Shown here in pieces: positions 28,993-36,245 of a stretch of 64,000 nucleotides of DNA. A program made the position numbers and the translations under genes. Source of the DNA: an uncultured Flavobacteriaceae bacterium (lineage in GTDB: Bacteria; Bacteroidota; Bacteroidia; Flavobacteriales; Flavobacteriaceae); the NCBI GenBank assembly GCA_943789365.1, contig CALSTV010000001.1, forward strand, positions 496,001 through 560,000. Direction: 5' to 3'. Below the pieces are notes generated by a model. It was given only the letters and a program-made list of their open reading frames with translations. It searched no databases and had not been told where the DNA came from. How positions within the stretch are numbered: position 1 is the stretch's first letter; each line of letters begins with the position of its first letter.

Positions 28993-29811
28993 TTATAATT
29001 TGGAAAACTCCAGAGCAATTTGTTTGGCTATCGACGTGCCAAAATGTTTTTTTCGATATTTAGTTACGGATTGAACACCTACAATTGCGTTCGTTACAAA
29101 AATCTCATCGGCCTTTTGCAAGTCAAACGGTGAAACTGAAGTTTCTTCAATAGTAAAATCGGCATTCTTTTCTAGCAACTCAACAACCTGCTTTCTAGCA
29201 ACACCTTTAATACATCCATCCAATAGTTTTGGGGTTTGTATGTGCGTTCCTTTTACCAAAAAAATATTTGCATTTGAAACCTCCACTACATTTTTTTGCT
29301 CATTTACCAATACACAAGTATCCAAGTCATTTTCTTTGGCATAAATACTCGATACCACATTTAACAAACGGTTAGACGATTTTAAAGTTGACAATAATCC
29401 CGAAGTTACATAATGATCTTTATACAAATCTATTTCGAATTTCTCTTTACGTGTAATTTCTCCTTCAAAAACTTCCAATAGAAAATCAATGCTATTCACT
29501 TCTGGCGTATAAAGCCCACCTTCTTTTCTATACACCGTACATTTCACCTTAAATATGTTTTCGGAAGCCACAATCTTAACGAGTTCTAATATCTGATTTT
29601 CGAAATAATCAAGCGTAAAGAACATAGGTATTTCCATCCGAATCATTCGCATTGAAGCCATAAGTCTAAAATAATGGTCTTCTACAAATCGTGGTCGTTC
29701 CTCTTTAATGCGTATTGTTTCAAACAAAGAGTCCCCATATGAGAAACCACGATTGTTTAAAGACAATTGAAAAGATTCTTTTTCTAATAAAGTACCGTTA
29801 AAATTCACCAT
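28993..29811 (-). CDS. Class IV aminotransferase (aminodeoxychorismate lyase/D-amino acid transaminase-like)
   Basis: A 272-residue PLP enzyme of fold type IV. The N-terminal NNRGFSYGDSLFETIRI is characteristic, TLKSSNRLLNVVS carries the probable PLP-binding Lys (about residue 138), and VVEVSNANIFLV with the later VARKQVVELL completes the fold. Substrate assignment between 4-amino-4-deoxychorismate lyase (PabC) and an amino acid transaminase cannot be made from sequence alone. It lies between YqgE and the START-like gene, the latter separated by a terminator. Confidence 0.87.
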   Translation of the reverse strand: MVNFNGTLLEKESFQLSLNNRGFSYGDSLFETIRIKEERPRFVEDHYFRLMASMRMIRMEIPMFFTLDYFENQILELVKIVASENIFKVKCTVYRKEGGLYTPEVNSIDFLLEVFEGEITRKEKFEIDLYKDHYVTSGLLSTLKSSNRLLNVVSSIYAKENDLDTCVLVNEQKNVVEVSNANIFLVKGTHIQTPKLLDGCIKGVARKQVVELLEKNADFTIEETSVSPFDLQKADEIFVTNAIVGVQSVTKYRKKHFGTSIAKQIALEFSKL

Positions 29812-29847
29812 AAAGCAAAAAATTTAGCCGCAAATTTAAGCAAAAAA

Positions 29848-29876
29848 AACTGCCTAAAATATCATTTTAGGCAGTT
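29848..29876 (-). terminator. Intrinsic terminator after the START-like gene
   Basis: A perfect 13-bp stem, AACTGCCTAAAAT and ATTTTAGGCAGTT around ATC, followed on the minus strand by a T-run (A-run at 29842-29849 on the plus strand). It ends the gene at 29901-30281. Confidence 0.85.
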
Positions 29877-29900
29877 TCGAAAATCTTATACTCTTTGTTT

Positions 29901-30281
29901 TTAGGCACCAATTGTATGCTTTAATTCACTGATTTGGTTTTCCCATAACAATTTAGCTTCCTCCAACTCATCTTCATCTGCAAAATCAGTTACAATCAAT
30001 GACACATCTTTGGTGATTGCGTCAATTTGAATTTTAAATTCAAAATACGTTTCCGGACTCTCATCTTCGACCCATTTAAAACGAGTTCGCTCATCTGACT
30101 TGTCGGACACCAATTTCGCAACCTCCTCTGCTCCATCCCAAATAAAGGTATACATTACACCTCTCGAATTTACATTGTCTGCAAACCATTCTCCTAATCC
30201 AGAGGGACTCGAAAAATACTGATACAACATAGTTGGTGAAGCGTGTATTGGAAACTCTAATTCAAATTTAATTTTACTCAT
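29901..30281 (-). CDS. START-like/SRPBCC domain protein
   Basis: A 126-residue protein with the helix-grip fold of SRPBCC/AHSA1-like proteins: FELEFPIHASPTMLYQYFSSPSGLGEWFADNV is the classic N-terminus, and the C-terminal helix ELEEAKLLWENQISELKHTIG closes the cavity. Such proteins bind hydrophobic ligands or Hsp90; no ligand can be named here. Family members of this exact type are widespread in Bacteroidota. It is a single gene with its own terminator. Confidence 0.87.
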   Translation of the reverse strand: MSKIKFELEFPIHASPTMLYQYFSSPSGLGEWFADNVNSRGVMYTFIWDGAEEVAKLVSDKSDERTRFKWVEDESPETYFEFKIQIDAITKDVSLIVTDFADEDELEEAKLLWENQISELKHTIGA

Positions 30282-30364
30282 CGTGGTTGTCTTAAGGTCA
30301 CAATGTATGTAATATTTTCAATAAAAAAAAATAAATTATTCTTCAATATTTTTACAAAAAACGC

Positions 30365-30394
30365 TTGCTCAAACTCAAATTTATTCTATATTTG
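30365..30394 (+). promoter_or_regulatory. Promoter of tRNA-Met (-33 TTG, 19-base spacer, -7 TATATTTG)
   Basis: TTG at 30365-30367 and TATATTTG at 30387-30394, 19 bases apart, place the start about 10 bases before the tRNA. Confidence 0.8.
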
Positions 30395-30405
30395 CACCCG
30401 CAAAA

Positions 30406-30479
30406 GGCGTGGTAGCTCAGATGGTTAGAGCGTCGGATTCATAACCCGGAGGTCAGCAGTTCAATTCTGCTTCACGCTA
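30406..30479 (+). tRNA. tRNA with CAT anticodon (tRNA-Met)
   Basis: A 74-base cloverleaf: acceptor GGCGTGG/TCACGCT (G-T closing pairs at both ends), D stem GCTC/GAGC, anticodon loop TTCATAA, T arm AGCAG-TTCAATT-CTGCT, discriminator A, CCA not encoded. The anticodon stem TCGGA/CCCGG has an A-C mismatch at 31-39. CAT also serves initiator Met and lysidine-modified Ile2; I cannot decide among these by eye. The 3' half is copied in the array that follows. Confidence 0.85.
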
Positions 30480-30484
30480 CAAGA

Positions 30485-30515
30485 AGAGGCTGTCTGAAAA
30501 GACAGCCTCTTTTTT
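30485..30515 (+). terminator. Intrinsic terminator of tRNA-Met, repeated in each array unit
   Basis: AGAGGCTGTCT and AGACAGCCTCT form an 11-bp stem around GAAA, followed by T's. Identical copies occur 344 bases apart at 30829, 31173, 31517 and 31861, and at 32258; the last unit has a different hairpin (32655-32684, TCCCCC/GGGGGA). Confidence 0.9.
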
Positions 30516-30517
30516 AT

Positions 30518-30768
30518 GCTATCGAATTTGTTGTCTACATTCTTTAATCTGAAAAACACAAGATTCACTATACGGGTTTTACCTACAACTTAACTCGAAG
30601 GTTTCATTCTCACAATCAAATTGCCACTAAAACGTTGTACTAAAAAACACAGACCTTGGATGGTGATTCAAATTGAATTTTTACAATCCAAAAAAGAAGC
30701 AATATTAAATGAAAAATACTTAAAATCAGGTAAGAGTCGATTATTCGTCAACTCACTAAAACTCCTAG
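30518..30768 (+). pseudogene. Decayed GIY-YIG endonuclease gene, copy 1 of 7
   Basis: Reading from 30518 gives FVVYIL, a stop, SEKHKIHYTGFTYNLTRRFH, then after a one-base shift RCTKKHRPWMVIQIEF ... ILNEKYLKSGKSRLFVNSL. VYIL and YTGFT correspond to the GIY and YIG motifs and the Glu of NEKYLKSG to the catalytic metal ligand of small UvrC/URI-type nucleases. One stop and one frameshift inactivate it. Further copies lie at 30862-31112, 31206-31456, 31550-31800, 31894-32144 and 32291-32541. A 91-codon open frame in each unit begins at TTG inside the second half and runs on through the tRNA-like tail; I do not regard it as a functional gene. Confidence 0.8.
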
Positions 30769-32185
30769 CGTCGGATTCGTATCCGTCAGCTGACGGACAG
30801 CAGTTCAATTCTGCTTCACGCTACAAGAAGAGGCTGTCTGAAAAGACAGCCTCTTTTTTATGCTATCGAATTTGTTGTCTACATTCTTTAATCTGAAAAA
30901 CACAAGATTCACTATACGGGTTTTACCTACAACTTAACTCGAAGGTTTCATTCTCACAATCAAATTGCCACTAAAACGTTGTACTAAAAAACACAGACCT
31001 TGGATGGTGATTCAAATTGAATTTTTACAATCCAAAAAAGAAGCAATATTAAATGAAAAATACTTAAAATCAGGTAAGAGTCGATTATTCGTCAACTCAC
31101 TAAAACTCCTAGCGTCGGATTCGTATCCGTCAGCTGACGGACAGCAGTTCAATTCTGCTTCACGCTACAAGAAGAGGCTGTCTGAAAAGACAGCCTCTTT
31201 TTTATGCTATCGAATTTGTTGTCTACATTCTTTAATCTGAAAAACACAAGATTCACTATACGGGTTTTACCTACAACTTAACTCGAAGGTTTCATTCTCA
31301 CAATCAAATTGCCACTAAAACGTTGTACTAAAAAACACAGACCTTGGATGGTGATTCAAATTGAATTTTTACAATCCAAAAAAGAAGCAATATTAAATGA
31401 AAAATACTTAAAATCAGGTAAGAGTCGATTATTCGTCAACTCACTAAAACTCCTAGCGTCGGATTCGTATCCGTCAGCTGACGGACAGCAGTTCAATTCT
31501 GCTTCACGCTACAAGAAGAGGCTGTCTGAAAAGACAGCCTCTTTTTTATGCTATCGAATGTGTTGTCTACATTCTTTAATCTGAAAAACACAAGATTCAC
31601 TATACGGGTTTTATCTACAACTTAACTCGAAGGTTTCATTCTCACAATCAAATTGCCACTAAAACGTTGTACTAAAAAACACAGACCTTGGATGGTGATT
31701 CAAATTGAATTTTTACAATCCAAAAAAGAAGCAATATTAAATGAAAAATACTTAAAATCAGGTAAGAGTCGATTATTCGTCAACTCACTAAAACTCCTAG
31801 CGTCGGATTCGTATCCGTCAGCTGACGGACAGCAGTTCAATTCTGCTTCACGCTACAAGAAGAGGCTGTCTGAAAAGACAGCCTCTTTTTTATGCTATCG
31901 AATGTGTTGTCTACATTCTTTAATCTGAAAAACACAAGATTCACTATACGGGTTTTATCTACAACTTAACTCGAAGGTTTCATTCTCACAATCAAATTGC
32001 CACTAAAACGTTGTACTAAAAAACACAGACCTTGGATGGTGATTCAAATTGAATTTTTACAATCCAAAAAAGAAGCAATATTAAATGAAAAATACTTAAA
32101 ATCAGGTAAGAGTCGATTATTCGTCAACTCACTAAAACTCCTAGCGTCGGATTCGTATCCGTCAGCTGACGGACAGCAGTTCAAT

Positions 32186-32238
32186 CCGCCAAAGAACAAC
32201 TATGCTAGTTTTTTAAACAGAGTAGAGGCCGGCACGGT
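32186..32238 (+). repeat. 53-bp insert in the tRNA-like tail of array unit 5
   Basis: It splits the T-arm copy between TTCAAT and TCTGCTTC. A diverged copy sits at 32583-32635 in unit 6, where its ends CCGCC and GGCGGG are inverted repeats. It accounts exactly for the 397-base length of these units. Confidence 0.75.
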
Positions 32239-32686
32239 TCTGCTTCACGCTACAAGAAGAGGCTGTCTGAAAAGACAGCCTCTTTTTTATGCTATCGAAT
32301 GTGTTGTCTACATTCTTTAATCTGAAAAACACAAGATTCACTATACGGGTTTTATCTACAACTTAACTCGAAGGTTTCATTCTCACAATCAAATTGCCAC
32401 TAAAACGTTGTACTAAAAAACACAGACCTTGGATGGTGATTCAAATTGAATTTTTCCAATCCAAAAAAGAAGCAATATTAAATGAAAAATACTTAAAATC
32501 AGGTAAGAGTCGATTATTCGTCAACTCACTAAAACTCCTAGCGTCGGATTCGTATCCGTCAGCTGACGGACAGCAGTTCAACCCGCCAAAGAACAACTAA
32601 GCTAGTTTTTTAAACTGAGTAGAGGCGGGCACGGTTCTGCTTCACGCTACAAGAAATCCCCCATATATAATGGGGGATTTTTTTAT

Positions 32687-32866
32687 GCTATCGAATTTAT
32701 TGTCTACATTCTTTATTCTAAATAACACAAGATTCACAATACGGATTTTACCTCCAACTTAACTCGAAGGTTTCATTCTCATAATCTAATTGCCACTAAA
32801 AGATTGTACTAAAAAACACAGACCTTGGATGGTGATTCAAATTGAATTTTTCCAATCCAAAAAACA
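32687..32866 (+). pseudogene. Truncated and diverged GIY-YIG copy ending the array
   Basis: This copy still has TAT (Tyr) where copies 1-6 have the stop, giving FIVYILYSK, but has its own stop just after and reads HKIHNTDFTSNLTRRFHSHN. It also has AGATTGTACT, one base longer than the AGATGTACT that would keep ATKRCTKKHRPW in frame. It stops at the shared stretch CAATCCAAAAAA and then runs into unique sequence, with no tRNA tail. Confidence 0.7.
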
Positions 32867-32921
32867 TAGCGATTTGGCAAGACCAAACCGCTATACAATA
32901 AGTTAAAAACCAAACGCTATT

Positions 32922-34124
32922 TTATGGAGCTGTAGCCTTGTAAACTATGGCATTACTCTTAGACAAAATAGAATAACTACTTCCAGCTTCTAGAAAAGCG
33001 CAACTTCCTTTTTGAAGACTCAAAGCATCTTCTCCTTCTGTAATTTCAATAGTTCCTTCAATAGAAATTAATACCTCTGCCGTTGTAGTAGTCGCGTTAT
33101 ATACCGAAGAATTAGAGAACTTCAACTGACTCAATTGAAAGTCTGGCGCAGGTGTTTTGTATATTCTTTCTATACCATCATTTTGCAATTCTCCGGAGAG
33201 AATTTCTGGATGAGTTTCCTCAAAAGCAACATGTTTTAACAATTCAGGAACATCTACATGTTTTGGTGTTAAACCGCCACGAAGTACATTGTCAGAATTC
33301 GCCATCAGTTCCATATTTTGTCCTTCCAAATAGGCGTGTGGAATTCCAGCATCCTGAAATACTGCTTCTCCTTTATTCGCTTTTACAACATTAAAAAAGT
33401 AAATGGAAAAAATTCCTTTATCCAAAACGGCTTTATCGCCAGATGAATCTACTGCTTTCGCAGCCCAATAGTCTGGACTCGACTTTTCCAACTTTCCTTG
33501 TTTATAAAGCGGTAATATACGAGAAACCAATGGACTTAACATTGTATTCGTTTCTTCTACAGACTGCTCCATAACAGTTTTATATAGGCCTCTATATCCT
33601 TGTTCTTCAAAAACGAGTATTAATGAAGAAAATTCAGGAACCGTTTGTAATACTTTTTGCAGTTCTGATTTAGGTAAAAAACCATGCAACAGCCAAAACT
33701 CACTCAAAGCAACCATAATTTCAGGCTTATGATTGTCATCCTTATAGTTTCTATGTGGAGCCGTCAGCGGAATCCCTTCTTGGTTTTCGCGTAAAAATCC
33801 TTTTTCTGCTTCAGTTTTGGTTGGATGCACTTGAATAGAGAGCATTTCATATACATCCAATACTTTAAATAAAAATGGTAAACGTCCAAACTGCTGAGAG
33901 ATCTTAGTTCCTAATTTTTCATTTGGGTTTGAACCTATATACACATCCAAAAGTTGCTCACCCTCCTGAGTTGTAACTGTAGCCGGAGCATTTACATGCG
34001 CCCCTAACCAGTATTCAGCACAAGGTTTTTCTCCTTTTTCTACTCCTAGCAACTCAGAGATAAAGTCGAATCCTCCCCAAGCATAATTTTGAATTTGACC
34101 TTTTAAGACAACTAATTTTGACAT
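32922..34124 (-). CDS. manA: Mannose-6-phosphate isomerase, class I
   Basis: Zinc enzyme interconverting mannose 6-phosphate and fructose 6-phosphate, feeding GDP-mannose synthesis. At 400 residues it is of normal class I length. The N-terminal QNYAWGGFDFISELLG and CAEYWLGAHVNAPA are typical, and zinc ligands are seen in LSIQVHPTK (Gln, His) and DNHKPEIMVAL (His, Glu); GIPHAYLEGQNMELMANSDNVLRGGLTPK is the strong C-terminal signature. It lies alone between two tRNA-tail arrays. CAAACTTA at 34142-34149 gives a -7 box TAAGTTTG on its strand. Confidence 0.95.
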   Translation of the reverse strand: MSKLVVLKGQIQNYAWGGFDFISELLGVEKGEKPCAEYWLGAHVNAPATVTTQEGEQLLDVYIGSNPNEKLGTKISQQFGRLPFLFKVLDVYEMLSIQVHPTKTEAEKGFLRENQEGIPLTAPHRNYKDDNHKPEIMVALSEFWLLHGFLPKSELQKVLQTVPEFSSLILVFEEQGYRGLYKTVMEQSVEETNTMLSPLVSRILPLYKQGKLEKSSPDYWAAKAVDSSGDKAVLDKGIFSIYFFNVVKANKGEAVFQDAGIPHAYLEGQNMELMANSDNVLRGGLTPKHVDVPELLKHVAFEETHPEILSGELQNDGIERIYKTPAPDFQLSQLKFSNSSVYNATTTTAEVLISIEGTIEITEGEDALSLQKGSCAFLEAGSSYSILSKSNAIVYKATAP

Positions 34125-34309
34125 CTGTTTAATTTTTTTTACAAACTTATAGAAAATAACAATATTAAAAACAGAATCCCTAGTTTATGGTTAATAAAAA
34201 GTGCAATTAGGTCTGCATATCCACCTCTTTTTAGGAACAGAAAATTTATGCTATACAGATGGAGAAACTACCTTTATCTCTAGTTTTATACTACAACTAG
34301 TCTCAAAAT

Positions 34310-34672
34310 AAACCTACCAGCAGACCCGGCTTCTCGTCTCTCTACCATATACTAGGTTTTCAACATAAAAAACCTTCGCTATTAAACAGAGGTTTTACTA
34401 AGTACAGGCGGAGAGACTCCCTTCGACTTCAACTTCCTTTGTTAGTTGAGCTCAGGATAAACTTCTCGCCTCTCCCCCTTCAAATGTAAATTTATACCAT
34501 AAAAAAACCTCTGCTATAAAACAGAGGTTTTACTAAGTACAGGCGGAGAGACTCCCTTCGACTTCAACTTCCTTTGTTAGTTGAGCTCAGGATAAACTTC
34601 TCGTCTCTCCCCCTTCAAATGTAAATTTATTCCATAAAAAAACCTCTGCTATAAAACAGAGGTTTTACTAAG
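34310..34672 (-). repeat. Tandem array of tRNA-Leu 3' end plus terminator (two near-identical units and a decayed one)
   Basis: The plus-strand string GTACAGGCGGAGAGACTC, the reverse complement of the last 18 bases of the tRNA-Leu region, recurs at 34402 and 34538 as well as in the tRNA (34672), with spacing 136 and 134. Each copy is accompanied by the terminator hairpin AACCTCTG..CAGAGGTT and by an 80-base spacer with TAGTTGAGCTCAGGATAAAC. The most distal copy (about 34310-34401) has a degraded hairpin. No gene is supported in 34150-34672. Confidence 0.9.
34636..34665 (-). terminator. Intrinsic terminator of tRNA-Leu
   Basis: AAACCTCTG and CAGAGGTTT form a 9-bp stem; on the minus strand it is followed by a run of T. 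Copies occur at about 34503-34530 and, degraded, at about 34370-34396. Confidence 0.8.
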
Positions 34673-34754
34673 TACAGGCGGAGAGACTCGAACTCTCACA
34701 CCTTGCGGCACTAGATCCTAAGTCTAGCGTGTCTACCAATTCCACCACGCCTGC
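34673..34754 (-). tRNA. tRNA-Leu (anticodon TAG)
   Basis: An 82-base class II tRNA: acceptor GCAGGCG/CGCCTGT, discriminator A, anticodon stem CTAGA/TCTAG with loop CTTAGGA (anticodon TAG), a long variable arm TGCCGCAAGGTGT-like, and T arm GAGAG-TTCGAGT-CTCTC. CCA is not encoded. Its 3' end is copied in the adjacent array. Confidence 0.93.
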
Positions 34755-34768
34755 ATACTTTTCGGATG

Positions 34769-34797
34769 CAAATATACACAATACTCATAAACTTCAA
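34769..34797 (-). promoter_or_regulatory. Promoter of tRNA-Leu (-33 TTG, 18-base spacer, -7 TATATTTG)
   Basis: On the minus strand, TTG (34797-34795) and TATATTTG (34776-34769) are 18 bases apart, placing the start about 8 bases before the tRNA. Confidence 0.75.
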
Positions 34798-34818
34798 AGC
34801 AGTTCACTCGTTTTTTAT

Positions 34819-34826
34819 TACATTTG
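34819..34826 (+). promoter_or_regulatory. Putative -7 promoter element TACATTTG for the M20 dipeptidase gene
   Basis: Matches TAnnTTTG. It overlaps an in-frame TTG at 34824, so the transcript would begin after that codon. This favours the ATG at 34848 as start. Confidence 0.6.
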
Positions 34827-34847
34827 AAAGACAATTTTTTTATTCCC

Positions 34848-36245
34848 ATGACAGACCTAAACCAATACATTGACAATCATAAAGATAGATTTTTATCGGA
34901 ACTTTTCACACTTCTAAAATCACCATCCATAAGTGCTGATTCTGCATTTAATCAAGATGTTTTGGACAGCGCAGCACTAATAAAACAAGCATTAGCATCC
35001 GCTGGCTGTCAACATGTTGAAATTTGTGATACACCTGGATATCCAGTCGTCTATGGGGAAATCCTCAAAAACCCTGAATTACCCACTGTACTTGTATATG
35101 GACACTATGATGTACAACCGGCAGACCCTATTGATCTTTGGGATTCTCCCCCTTTTGACCCCATCATAAAAAAAACAGCTACACATCCAGGAGGCGCAAT
35201 TTTTGCTAGAGGAGCTTGTGATGATAAGGGACAAGTTTTTATGCATATAAAAGCGCTTGAGTACATGGTAAAAAACGACGAATTACCTTGTAATGTGAAG
35301 TTCATGATTGAGGGAGAGGAAGAGATTGGTTCACCAAGCTTAGAATGGTATGTTAAAAACAATCATGAAAAATTGAGCAATGATTGCATTTTGATTTCCG
35401 ACACTGGCATGATTTCAAATTCACAACCCTCAATCACAACCGGACTGAGAGGCTTGGCATATATGGAAGTTAGTTTGACAGGTCCGAATCGAGATTTACA
35501 TTCAGGGTTGTATGGGGGTGCTGTCGCAAATCCAATAAATATTCTTAGTCAAATGATCGCCCAACTTACGGACGAAAACAATCGAATTACTATTCCTGGA
35601 TTTTATGACCATATAGATGTATTACCCCAAGAGGAAAGAGATGAATTGGCAAAAGCTCCGTTTTCATTACAGGCGTATAAAGATGCCTTAGACTTGAATG
35701 ATGTGCATGGTGAAAAAGGCTATTCAACGAATGAACGAAATTCTATTCGACCTTCTTTAGATGTAAACGGAATTTGGGGAGGCTATCTTGGACAAGGAGC
35801 AAAAACTGTAATTCCTTCCAAAGCACACGCCAAAATATCCATGCGTTTGGTACCAGGGCAAGACCATACACGCATAGCAACGCTATTCACAGAACACATG
35901 AAAGCATTGGCTCCAAGTTCTGTAAAGATTGAAGTAACTGCTCATCATGGTGGGCATCCTTACGTCACTCCTACCAACAACATTGGCTATCAGGCTGCAA
36001 AACGAGCCTATCAAACAACTTTTGGCGTACCCGCAATACCACAACGATCTGGTGGAAGTATTCCAATTGTTTCTTTGTTTGAACGTGAATTAAAGAGTAA
36101 ATCTATTTTAATGGGGTTTGGGCTGGACAGCGACGCTATTCATTCTCCTAATGAACATTTTGGCGTCTTTAATTTCTTAAAAGGCATTGAAACTATACCA
36201 TGGTTTTATAAATACTTCACGGAATTGAGCAATTCAACTATTTAA
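34848..36245 (+). CDS. M20 family dipeptidase
   Basis: A 465-residue zinc peptidase of the M20/ArgE/DapE/CPG2 family, of the dipeptidase length class. Metal-binding and catalytic motifs: VYGHYDVQPAD (His, Asp; about residue 83-93), ARGACDDKGQ (bridging Asp), MIEGEEEIGSP (catalytic Glu-Glu), ISDTGM and the C-terminal GLDSDAIHSPNEHFG (His). The dimerisation domain includes RDLHSGLYGGAVANP. Likely a cytoplasmic peptidase acting on short peptides. ATG 34848 was chosen because an upstream TTG lies in the -7 box. It ends overlapping by 4 bases the convergent YjbR-like gene. Confidence 0.93.
   Translation: MTDLNQYIDNHKDRFLSELFTLLKSPSISADSAFNQDVLDSAALIKQALASAGCQHVEICDTPGYPVVYGEILKNPELPTVLVYGHYDVQPADPIDLWDSPPFDPIIKKTATHPGGAIFARGACDDKGQVFMHIKALEYMVKNDELPCNVKFMIEGEEEIGSPSLEWYVKNNHEKLSNDCILISDTGMISNSQPSITTGLRGLAYMEVSLTGPNRDLHSGLYGGAVANPINILSQMIAQLTDENNRITIPGFYDHIDVLPQEERDELAKAPFSLQAYKDALDLNDVHGEKGYSTNERNSIRPSLDVNGIWGGYLGQGAKTVIPSKAHAKISMRLVPGQDHTRIATLFTEHMKALAPSSVKIEVTAHHGGHPYVTPTNNIGYQAAKRAYQTTFGVPAIPQRSGGSIPIVSLFERELKSKSILMGFGLDSDAIHSPNEHFGVFNFLKGIETIPWFYKYFTELSNSTI

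Follow-up and report, generated by a model that had tools for sequence, protein, structure and literature searches.

A tandem array behind a flavobacterial tRNA-Met gene is probably the decayed remnant of a small mobile GIY-YIG nuclease cassette

A tandem array in which each full unit carries the relic of a GIY-YIG nuclease gene was confirmed behind tRNA-Met in the window, the whole 64,000-nt stretch of an uncultured Flavobacteriaceae genome that was analysed. With a probability of about 0.68, this array is the decayed and amplified remnant of a small mobile cassette which targets tRNA genes and restores them. The insertion of such cassettes at tRNA genes is well supported; their architecture, their recurrence and their presence or absence at syntenic sites were observed directly. 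The insertion reading proposed by the first-pass annotation was partly supported. The features of the window are:

30406..30480, + strand: intact tRNA-Met (CAT), the target gene (ARAGORN; Rfam 60.6 bits)
30481..30824, + strand: unit 1, 344 nt; terminator, dead GIY-YIG gene and displaced partial tRNA
30483..30515, + strand: terminator hairpin of unit 1, which recurs in units 2-6 (read from the sequence)
30521..30768, + strand: GIY-YIG relic of unit 1 (Pfam PF01541; comparison with the intact gene of locus L055)
30768..30824, + strand: displaced partial tRNA-Met of unit 1; anticodon-arm remnant, hairpin and exact last 27 nt of the tRNA
30782..30797, + strand: palindrome TCCGTCAGCTGACGGA in the displaced copy of unit 1 (palindrome search of the whole genome)
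30825..31168, + strand: unit 2, 344 nt (unit alignment)
31169..31512, + strand: unit 3, 344 nt (unit alignment)
31513..31856, + strand: unit 4, 344 nt (unit alignment)
31857..32253, + strand: unit 5, 397 nt; 53-nt insert with an inverted repeat inside the tail copy (unit alignment)
32254..32650, + strand: unit 6, 397 nt; an insert like that of unit 5 (unit alignment)
32651..32866, + strand: unit 7, truncated and diverged; terminator and premature stop both different (unit alignment)
34672..34754, - strand: tRNA-Leu(TAG), the second array-bearing tRNA of the window (ARAGORN)
34367..34689, - strand: tandem array behind tRNA-Leu, 135 nt x 2.4; terminator and tRNA tail with a T-loop hairpin, no GIY-YIG match (TRF)

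Both TRF and the unit alignment bore out the earlier count of seven units directly after tRNA-Met(CAT), four of 344 nt, two of 397 nt and a truncated one of about 222 nt. Units 1-3 were identical to each other, and units 4-6 showed 98.5-99.7% identity to other full units over ungapped columns. The identity of unit 7 to the others was 83.8-84.7%, with the unit taken as 32651-32872 (222 nt) in the alignment; its similarity fades near 32866. In a background of 400,000 nt from the same genome only three arrays of period at least 50 and score at least 150 were detected, none of them within 800 nt of a tRNA, which excludes chance repeats as the origin of the array. The tRNA-Met, which from its features we take to be of the elongator type, is uninterrupted and whole, and the alteration is confined to the displaced copy. 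The order there is GCGTCGGATTC, then the hairpin TCCGTCAGCTGACGGA, which stands in place of part of the anticodon arm, then the last 27 tRNA bases (30798-30824 in unit 1). The exact 27-base tail ascribed to every full unit was found in the 344-nt units; in both 397-nt units it is split by 53 nt with another inverted repeat (read by eye). The "different middle" described for the tail copies is indeed altered: it is a hairpin, and its consensus was met again in other phyla.

The GIY-YIG genes of the window units are dead. The relic of unit 1 has ATC at 30521-30523 where the intact gene of L055 has ATG, a premature stop at 30545-30547 and a later frameshift; the one stop and one frameshift reported for each full unit were thus both present, and the account was incomplete in that the start codon is also lost. 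Unit 7 shares the start-codon loss and the frameshift, and its premature stop differs from that of the full units. The unit alignment supports the amplification that had been suggested, with a gene copy damaged beforehand; start codon and frame were probably lost by then. Pfam PF01541 matched units 1-3 at 27.3 bits; units 4-6, absent from the Pfam results, were recovered by the protein search. Three intact relatives scored 50-71 bits (cut-off 22.6), which places them in the GIY-YIG superfamily.

The intact gene encodes a stand-alone GIY-YIG nuclease of about 80-86 aa. Y6, Y17, G19, R27 and E64 were invariant among 38 aligned sequences and are presumably the catalytic residues of the GIY-YIG pattern Y..Y-G..R..E. 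The dN/dS was 0.02-0.20 in the 11 of 15 homologue pairs with a defined ratio (three pairs were saturated, one had no synonymous change, and not all pairs are independent), and the gene is under purifying selection. The structure predicted for an 81-aa protein (pLDDT 94) is a single domain with UPF0213 and Slx1 as the best fold matches. The nearest folds in PDB were 1zg2 (E 2.1e-4) and 6seh (E 3.8e-4), while I-TevI was reached only at E >1; the nearest PDB sequence match was the UPF0213 protein 1ywl (E 0.0019). The homing endonuclease I-TevI has a DNA-binding domain beside its catalytic domain, and no such second domain was found in the 81-aa model. NCBIfam assigned no family to the three intact proteins. 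No site-specific recombinase was detected in the units, where the listed ORFs of at least 60 aa are the GIY-YIG gene or its remains. An att-type element in the integrase sense, as first proposed, was not borne out, since there is no integrase and the protein is an isolated catalytic domain. Short GIY-YIG proteins are common in Bacteroidota; we know of no role for them, nor, to our knowledge, have UPF0213 proteins been linked to tRNA genes.

Homologous loci were found by protein search alone, seeded with an alignment of four tRNA-adjacent proteins, so that the clade nearest to those four is sampled. The search gave 329 confirmed loci, of which the best 80 are named; several of these are metagenome bins with the host organism taken from the record. 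Among the best 80 of 329, a same-strand tRNA lies at most 200 nt upstream of the gene in 54 loci (0.21 expected) and a tRNA just downstream in 8, so the intact copies next to tRNA genes that the first-pass annotation had proposed to look for exist at 62 of 80. No opposite-strand tRNA was found, and the median gene-tRNA distance was 51 nt. As for the other 18 loci, 8 are near a contig start, 5 have a tRNA at 201-450 nt and 5 have none within 450 nt. Many different tRNAs, as well as tmRNA, serve as sites. The locus's own tRNA tail was copied at 23/24 positions or more in 28 of the 59 loci with an upstream tRNA, with 25 different tails and a maximum of 15 in shuffled windows; a recognisable copy (more than 14/24) was absent from 20 of the 59, which counts against the mobile cassette. 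Mirror-image loci also occur, in which the complete tRNA follows the gene and a 5' copy carries the hairpin in its D-loop. Several gene copies stand at one locus in 18 of the best 80 of 329 loci. In L131, L145 and L069 (the last outside the 80) neighbouring copies are merely 38-47% identical, which suggests that separate arrivals may have accreted at one site.

Intact homologues near tRNA genes and the variable occupation of the orthologous site agree with the earlier view of an element which leaves an intact tRNA and a displaced partial copy. The empty tRNA-Met loci it had proposed to seek were found in the genus: the orthologous tRNA-Met, marked by a common upstream gene (protein 80-87% identical), has one intact copy in G004 and none in G001, G003 and G005. 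In G002 the same tRNA carries a probable integrase element of about 51 kb, the integrase N-terminal domains of which are just under the Pfam cut-offs; it was rejected as the same thing and is a different element on the same tRNA. In a Flavobacterium-like genus the fMet synteny comparison used 30 loci, obtained for 79 of the 81 matching genomes, and three were dropped as their contigs end at or soon after the tRNA; the syntenic tRNA-fMet was occupied in one of the 27 assessable loci. Occupied and empty alleles of one site, as expected of a free-standing homing gene, were thereby found in a comparison between species.

At the occupied fMet locus, the displaced tail is followed by a terminator of the same type as the one directly after the tRNA in several empty relatives, and the cassette terminator is of another type, also present in the eMet cassette L076. 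The protein is 80% identical to that of L076 and 71% to those of two other fMet cassettes. This contrast is weakened by the fMet cassettes L081 (78% to L159) and L082 (80% to L076), and the fMet/eMet switches depend on a poorly resolved tree (84 columns, 84 rows) with many unresolved forks. A cassette-type terminator without the gene in L213 and L218, and a third type in L208, the nearest relative of the occupied genome (flank 91% identical), also speak against the mobile cassette.

A host function, in which a domesticated nuclease or RNA-processing factor is regulated via the tRNA operon with the tRNA-like 3' end as the regulatory target, is very improbable. Purifying selection and the conserved position and orientation would suit it, and the four displaced copies folded as RNA were modestly better than shuffles (z from -1.98 to -2.72, in comparison with -1.77 for the intact tRNA). 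However, the distribution is patchy, with any GIY-YIG match in 13 of 21 genomes (the window genome included) and the strict Met-scar pattern in 12 of 296; moreover, the gene is decayed in the window, the target tRNAs are many and a site may hold several copies.

The hairpin of the cassette has the consensus TCCGYC..GRCGGA and is typically located in one loop of the partial tRNA copy. Bacteroidota, and also records filed as Peregrinibacteria and Cloacimonadota, show the same hairpin beside the gene. Around the gene 60 palindromes were counted in 43,066 nt, compared with 47 in 385,956 nt elsewhere, an approximately 11-fold local enrichment; a coupling of palindrome and enzyme, as in REP-RAYT-like systems, was thus observed. 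A TCCGYC-type palindrome lies within 150 nt in 50 of the best 80 of 329 confirmed loci and is absent from 30, which tells against the mobile cassette. Of the 17 sites of the TCCGTCAGCTGACGGA type in the window genome, 10 are in the two Met arrays and 4 next to paired tRNA-Ile and tRNA-Ala genes that presumably belong to rRNA operons; 3 are stray. A second class, CGAGAAG..CTGAGC (at most 2 mismatches), occurs 13 times in that genome; each of these sites follows a tRNA at a distance of at most 440 nt and lacks the gene. The position G000:C1:1546016 fits the tRNA pattern but is missing from the tRNA matches, and was rejected as a tRNA.

It is conceivable, though rather doubtful, that the hairpin came first, the mobile unit being a REP/MITE-like palindrome which enters tRNA loops, with the Slx1-like GIY-YIG protein as its partner nuclease and counterpart of RAYT transposases. 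The recurrence of the hairpin beside the gene in distant records, in the closely read loci within the loop of an incomplete tRNA copy, would fit, as would the gene-less second class and a predicted fold like that of branched-DNA nucleases. Against it, dispersal over many intergenic sites, as with REPs, was not seen in the window genome, where 14 of the 17 sites are in the two arrays or beside tRNA-Ile/Ala; no hairpin insertion was seen away from tRNA sites, and 30 of the 80 loci have no such palindrome within 150 nt.

The window genome also has two intact arrays with the GIY-YIG gene, one behind a second tRNA-Met, with 387-nt units and 4 genes, and one behind tmRNA, with 472-nt units and 4 matches. 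TRF placed tandem arrays behind 18 of its 50 tRNA/tmRNA genes, mostly without a GIY-YIG gene. The distinct tRNA-linked arrays number 17, and 14 of them have no GIY-YIG match. In the comparison of displaced tRNA copies 3 of 2350 control pairs matched, all three being tRNA-Tyr beside the Lys array. Two relatives from the fMet synteny comparison have a tail scar without the gene. Tails without the gene, which had been named beforehand as speaking against insertion, were therefore found in part, and because of these arrays and scars the gene is dispensable in cis for array growth. The mobile cassette is also opposed by G014, which has two intact tRNA-Val cassettes and no arrays at 36 ARAGORN-called genes (from stretches spanning 35 of 45 Rfam matches; the corresponding numbers for G001 were 44 genes and 44 of 46). 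Its tail copies amounted to one (tRNA-Thr) against 5 of 1222 control pairs, with the displaced tRNA-Val copies left uncounted, probably masked as ARAGORN calls them tRNA.

A purely local process without mobility is unlikely; the gene would then be an old, vertically inherited neighbour of tRNA-Met, and tails and arrays would have arisen because tRNA and terminator, rich in hairpins, are prone to ordinary slippage or unequal crossing over. It would explain the gene-less arrays and the amplification of an already damaged gene; the upstream neighbour common to the window, L055 and L076 (protein 62-87% identical) leaves room for an ancestral site. In several loci (among those listed, L077, L080, L103 and L125) the two terminators hardly differ, which local duplication alone would explain. 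The copied tails almost always match the host's tRNA, although homing across species should often leave mismatches between donor and recipient; among the loci listed, a paired T-stem difference was found in L083 only. Both observations count against the mobile cassette, and given the second, local duplication or gene conversion must contribute as well. On the other side, the syntenic sites are patchily occupied, in G263 and L055 the terminator of the cassette is unlike the displaced one, the target tRNAs are diverse, neighbouring copies have diverged strongly, and the hairpin consensus is common to several phyla.

According to the preferred reading of a mobile cassette, a terminator and the nuclease gene lie inside the tRNA transcription unit, with one complete tRNA kept and a partial second copy on the far side. 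The nuclease would break the DNA at the loop region of a tRNA gene. Repair with the tRNA itself, common to all target genomes, as the homology arm on both sides would insert the cassette and restore the tRNA, the hairpin-bearing copy being the arm that is no longer cleavable. The presumed target site survives in the intact tRNA, unlike in classical homing, and this weighs against the scheme. The space for a separate promoter is small, and transcription of the gene probably reads through from the tRNA. The tRNA and the displaced copy could then recombine, by unequal exchange or by repair of a break from the sister, and so produce tandem units of tail, terminator, gene and partial tRNA. As the gene was probably damaged by then, growth of the window array would rest on host recombination, possibly aided in trans by intact nucleases elsewhere in the genome. 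A phage or plasmid origin was rejected, with no phage match, none of 64 viral-contig candidates confirmed and one 40%-identical plasmid match.

A further step is tentative: a class of minimal mobile elements of about 300 nt, with a bare Slx1-like GIY-YIG nuclease structurally specific for the hairpin or cruciform DNA of tRNA genes and of its own palindrome, which might use the tRNA as a universal homology arm, leave the host tRNA whole and build ORF-less tRNA-tail arrays in trans genome-wide. If true, this class would connect REP-type palindromes with homing and with integration at tRNA genes, and would span Bacteroidota, Patescibacteria-type lineages and Cloacimonadota.

Among the literature matches listed, no description of such tRNA-hugging nuclease cassettes was found. 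One study reportedly describes an intron-borne mobile nuclease aimed at tRNA-fMet; the likeness is a mobile nuclease on that tRNA, whereas the tRNA of the cassette is uninterrupted. An intron or another known RNA was rejected: in 14 loci only tRNA and tmRNA reached the Rfam gathering level, and a search of 29800-35000 of the window up to E 1 gave no intron family, its non-tRNA matches being far below the cut-offs. REP elements and RAYT transposases couple short palindromes with a small nuclease/transposase family, but the enzyme fold is another one, and the palindromes of the window genome are largely confined to displaced tRNA copies. In E. coli tyrT, tandem 178-nt repeats behind the tRNA each contain a tRNA-Tyr tail (rtT RNA); the tandem tRNA-tail units are alike, with the difference that no nuclease gene is present. 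Slx1, which with UPF0213/YhbQ has the fold nearest to the cassette protein, differs in working with Slx4 on branched DNA, as worded in PDB entry titles.

SegB, a free-standing GIY-YIG homing endonuclease located beside tRNA genes of T-even phages, is implicated in cutting tRNA-containing sequence and drives tandem segmental amplification of the tRNA region by homologous recombination, according to the available excerpt (PMC13096335). The cassette resembles it in the GIY-YIG gene beside tRNA genes and in tandem amplification. In contrast to SegB as excerpted, which is phage-borne and amplifies a segment with full-length tRNA, the cassette is chromosomal with no phage match or confirmed viral-contig homologue, its units hold a hairpin-marked partial tRNA and its protein is a bare catalytic domain. 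The integrase-borne ICECleSHZ29 occupies the 3' end of tRNA-Met-CAT with 17 bp direct repeats, as given in the excerpt (PMC12561888). Such ICEs and genomic islands are similar in their tRNA 3'-end insertion and tail repeats at both ends; as excerpted, they differ by an integrase, plain direct repeats and tens of kb, compared with about 300 nt, no integrase and a hairpin in the displaced copy.

With the mobile cassette, anonymous short GIY-YIG ORFs become a testable mobile element with a precise habit behind tRNA genes, one which would exploit these genes with far less DNA than integrase elements. It would also allow nuclease-driven gene amplification, shown for phage SegB, to be studied in a natural setting on the chromosome of a bacterium. 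With 17 tRNA-linked arrays in a single genome, one may ask what purpose so many tRNA tails and terminators serve. Contig ends coincide with 15 of the best 80 of 329 loci, and the cassettes may explain assembly breaks near tRNA genes.

The first-pass annotation had described seven units directly after tRNA-Met(CAT), four of 344 nt, two of 397 nt and one truncated, and the comparison of the units bore this out:

30406-30480, tRNA-Met(CAT); six full units and a truncated seventh adjoin its 3' end with no gap

The unit lengths were, in order, 344, 344, 344, 344, 397, 397 and about 222 nt. Each full unit consisted of a terminator hairpin, a GIY-YIG relic and a partial tRNA. In the partial tRNA, GCGTCGGATTC was kept, and the palindrome TCCGTCAGCTGACGGA replaced the 3' side of the anticodon arm and the variable region of the intact gene. 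Its 3' end corresponded to the exact last 27 nt of tRNA-Met; this tail, claimed for every full unit, was intact in the 344-nt units but interrupted by 53 nt in both 397-nt units. Units 1-3 were identical, few columns differed in units 4-6, and the truncated unit 7 was 83.8-84.7% identical to the others and had a different terminator. Compared with the intact gene of L055, a locus of the same-genus genome G004, the start codon was lost and a frameshift was present in units 1, 6 and 7 of the printed alignment, units 1-6 being nearly identical. A premature stop was common to units 1-6, whereas unit 7 lacked it and carried its own. The proposed decay by one stop and one frameshift was thereby confirmed for units 1-6, although the start codon was also lost and the stop of unit 7 differs. 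Judged from these sequences, the decay probably set in before the units were amplified, and this growth did not require an open copy in cis.

The gene upstream of this tRNA-Met occupied the same place in L055, G001 and G002 (86.5, 86.5 and 86.6% protein identity) and, more distantly, in G003 (81.7%), G005 (80.3%) and F. nitrogenifigens (L076, 62%); the downstream peptidase gene was conserved at L055 and G001 too. At the orthologous tRNA-Met, G004 carried a single intact 81-aa gene, identical to that on the Flavicella sp. contig L074; behind it came a partial tRNA with the hairpin, and a terminator of another type. In the same-genus genomes G001, G003 and G005 the site held the tRNA and one terminator, nothing else, and a protein search of these whole genomes gave no match to the cassette protein. 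Empty tRNA-Met loci, which had been suggested as a check, were thus found in three close relatives beside the occupied G004. In G002 the tRNA-Met held an element of about 51 kb, probably an integrase element, with an integrase-like frame behind the tRNA (L175, L196) whose N-terminal domains scored slightly below the Pfam cut-offs. Its displaced tail, 51,360 nt away, started at the anticodon loop; this start lies near the GIY-YIG cassette boundary. Integrase elements with tRNA tails are well known (PMC12561888). In relatives, 18 loci including L055 were checked with ARAGORN: six immediately followed a tRNA or tmRNA gene (Met, Val twice, His, Arg, tmRNA), and a seventh lay about 490 nt from tRNA-His.

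A protein search over 84,980 species genomes resulted in 329 confirmed loci, of which the best 80 were analysed. A same-strand tRNA was located at most 200 nt upstream of the match start in 54 of these 80 (median 51 nt), the expectation from the tRNA density beyond 1 kb being 0.21. In 8 further of the best 80 the intact tRNA was just downstream instead, so that intact GIY-YIG genes beside tRNAs, the other proposed check, were indeed present. No opposite-strand tRNA was found within 200 nt among the best 80. The remaining 18 comprised 8 loci at most 300 nt from the contig 5' end, 5 with a tRNA at 201-450 nt and 5 without a tRNA within 450 nt. The target tRNAs of the best 80 were mainly initiator or elongator Met, otherwise Asp, Ser, Asn, Phe, Pro, Ile, Cys and Arg. 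Their hosts were mainly Bacteroidota, the others being labelled Peregrinibacteria, Cloacimonadota, Magasanikbacteria and Yanofskybacteria, with single records of Rhizobium, Planctomycetes, Chlorobi, Ignavibacteria and Woesearchaeota; labels are as filed, and many records are metagenome bins. A tRNA was located at most 450 nt upstream in 59 loci, and its own tail recurred after the gene at 23 or more of 24 bases in 28 of them (25 different tails) and at 20 or more in 30; 20 had no tail copy.

The best palindrome near the gene end had arms of at least 6 nt in 54 of the best 80 of 329 loci versus 58 of 400 shuffled windows, and most of these were TCCGYC..GRCGGA or a near form. The TCCGYC type itself occurred near the gene in 50 of the best 80. 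Its density was about 11-fold higher around the gene (60 in 43,066 nt) than in the flanks (47 in 385,956 nt, several of them barely beyond the 150-nt limit). In the displaced copy the hairpin was situated in the anticodon arm for tRNA-Met and in the T-loop for Asp (TCCCGA..TCGGGA) and Phe. At L150, L149, L122 and L135, mirror-image loci with the intact tRNA on the downstream side, it was in the D-loop of the displaced 5' copy. The strict Met-scar pattern, an altered tail of tRNA-Met, was detected in 12 of 296 Bacteroidota genomes (8 of 140 genera), and its reversed control in none of the 296. In G000, the genome of the window, the 17 palindrome sites were not dispersed: the two tRNA-Met arrays accounted for 6 and 4, another 4 adjoined tRNA-Ile/Ala pairs, and 3 lay elsewhere. 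Two stray TCCGCC..GGCGGA palindromes (L204 at about 793, L205 at about 742; G000:C1:942593 and 2395942) each flank a TTTTTAG/AAAAACT heptamer run.

The cassette protein usually had about 80-86 aa and only one GIY-YIG domain. Its predicted structure (pLDDT 94) appeared closest to UPF0213 (1zg2, E 2.1e-4) and Slx1 (6seh, E 3.8e-4), and matched I-TevI only at E >1. The dN/dS was 0.02-0.20 in the 11 of 15 pairs that yielded a ratio. The choice of tRNA clustered on the protein tree, many forks of which are unresolved, with 24 changes versus 38.9 after shuffling, and none of 200 shuffles came out as low. More than one gene copy was present in 18 of the best 80 of 329 loci, mostly spaced by 328-465 nt. 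The low identity of neighbouring copies within L131 and L145 (38-40%) and of two adjacent genes at a tmRNA locus outside the 80 (L069:1501-2251, 47%) suggests that such copies accumulated through separate arrivals at a single site. A frame at L149:3340-4420, flanked by two tRNA-Ser genes and neighbouring a GIY-YIG cassette, resembles a LAGLIDADG homing endonuclease when inspected by eye.

At the syntenic initiator tRNA of a Flavobacterium-like genus (30 loci, 27 assessable), the gene was present in 1 of 27 and absent in 26. Tails without the gene in relatives had been named as evidence against insertion; such altered tails were seen in 2 of the 26 gene-less loci, L225 and L232. At the occupied locus the terminator behind the displaced tail was of the type directly behind the tRNA in several gene-less relatives (e.g. 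L210, L212, L214, L219), while that between tRNA and gene was of another type, shared with the F. nitrogenifigens cassette at the elongator tRNA. As counter-cases, L213 and L218 had the cassette-type terminator but no gene, and the nearest relative, L208, had a third type. The occupied-locus protein was 80% identical to the F. nitrogenifigens cassette protein. Among cassettes at the initiator tRNA, its identity was 71% to L075 and L078 but reached 78% to L081.

The simplest account is a mobile nuclease cassette which uses tRNA sequence as a landing site and restores the tRNA. It is based on the intact tRNA with a displaced copy of its own tail, the patchy syntenic presence, the many alternative tRNA targets, the differing terminators on the two gene sides in some genomes and the selection on the nuclease. 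We infer the cut site, the role of the hairpin and the travel of the cassette between species. The tail copies are almost always the host's own, which argues for homogenisation by local duplication or gene conversion; in L083 displaced tail and tRNA differ by a paired T-stem change, the single case resembling donor and recipient alleles. The direct repeat that the cassette creates would account for unequal recombination and, through it, for the arrays. In phages, the GIY-YIG nuclease SegB lies beside tRNA genes and drives amplification (PMC13096335); the present cassettes are chromosomal. Searches of the openly accessible literature listed no account of chromosomal GIY-YIG cassettes that bear a hairpin mark and restore the tRNA.

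Searched with Pfam, the whole G000 genome (3.73 Mb) contained 17 GIY-YIG matches, three of them window units 1-3. A second tRNA-Met, which we take to be of initiator type from its anticodon-stem features, was followed by 387-nt units with four of the matches; the genes of this array are intact, encode 85 aa and come with an altered tRNA tail of the kind seen in the window. The tmRNA gene was followed by 472-nt units with another four matches; the one gene listed there encodes 84 aa, and no tmRNA tail copy could be clearly recognised. The proteins of these two arrays were 38% identical. None of the remaining six was directly behind a tRNA. Two were frames of 103 aa, two had 100 and 129 aa, and the last two were long, at 612 and 465 aa. 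Of these, the 129-aa frame was on the opposite strand, about 870 nt from a third tRNA-Met and about 330 nt beyond that tRNA's ORF-less array. One of the 103-aa frames lies on the main contig and the other, with a single residue changed, on C2, a contig of 29.8 kb (L020, L021); ARAGORN found no tRNA in these 4-kb stretches.

Tandem arrays (period at least 50 nt) followed 18 of the 50 G000 tRNA/tmRNA genes within 150 nt, corresponding to 17 distinct arrays since tRNA-Lys and the adjacent tRNA-Tyr have one in common; the background was 3 such arrays in 400,000 nt, none near a tRNA. Just 3 of the 17 contained a GIY-YIG match, and searches with three cassette proteins found none inside the other 14:

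34367-34689 of the window, one gene-less array
L025, L026, L029, L034, L039, L042, L045, L046 and L049, one gene-less array each
L033 and L044, two gene-less arrays each

Examples are 96 nt x 9.8 behind tRNA-Arg and 182 nt x 12.3 behind tRNA-Asn, and in several, those read closely, the unit was a terminator and an altered tRNA tail. No such arrays were detected in G001 (0 of 44 genes) and G014 (0 of 36), draft assemblies in which arrays may have collapsed; on this small comparison, their abundance is peculiar to G000. Since G014 has two intact tRNA-Val cassettes yet no arrays, an intact nuclease alone is insufficient to bring them. A copy of the own 3' end of at least 11 nt was present downstream of 14 of the 50 G000 genes; of 2350 control pairs, 3 had one. 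Hairpins of a second class, CGAGAAG..CTGAGC, had 13 sites in G000, every one within 440 nt behind a tRNA. Four copies of it are behind tRNA-Ile adjoining tRNA-Ala, presumably in rRNA operons.
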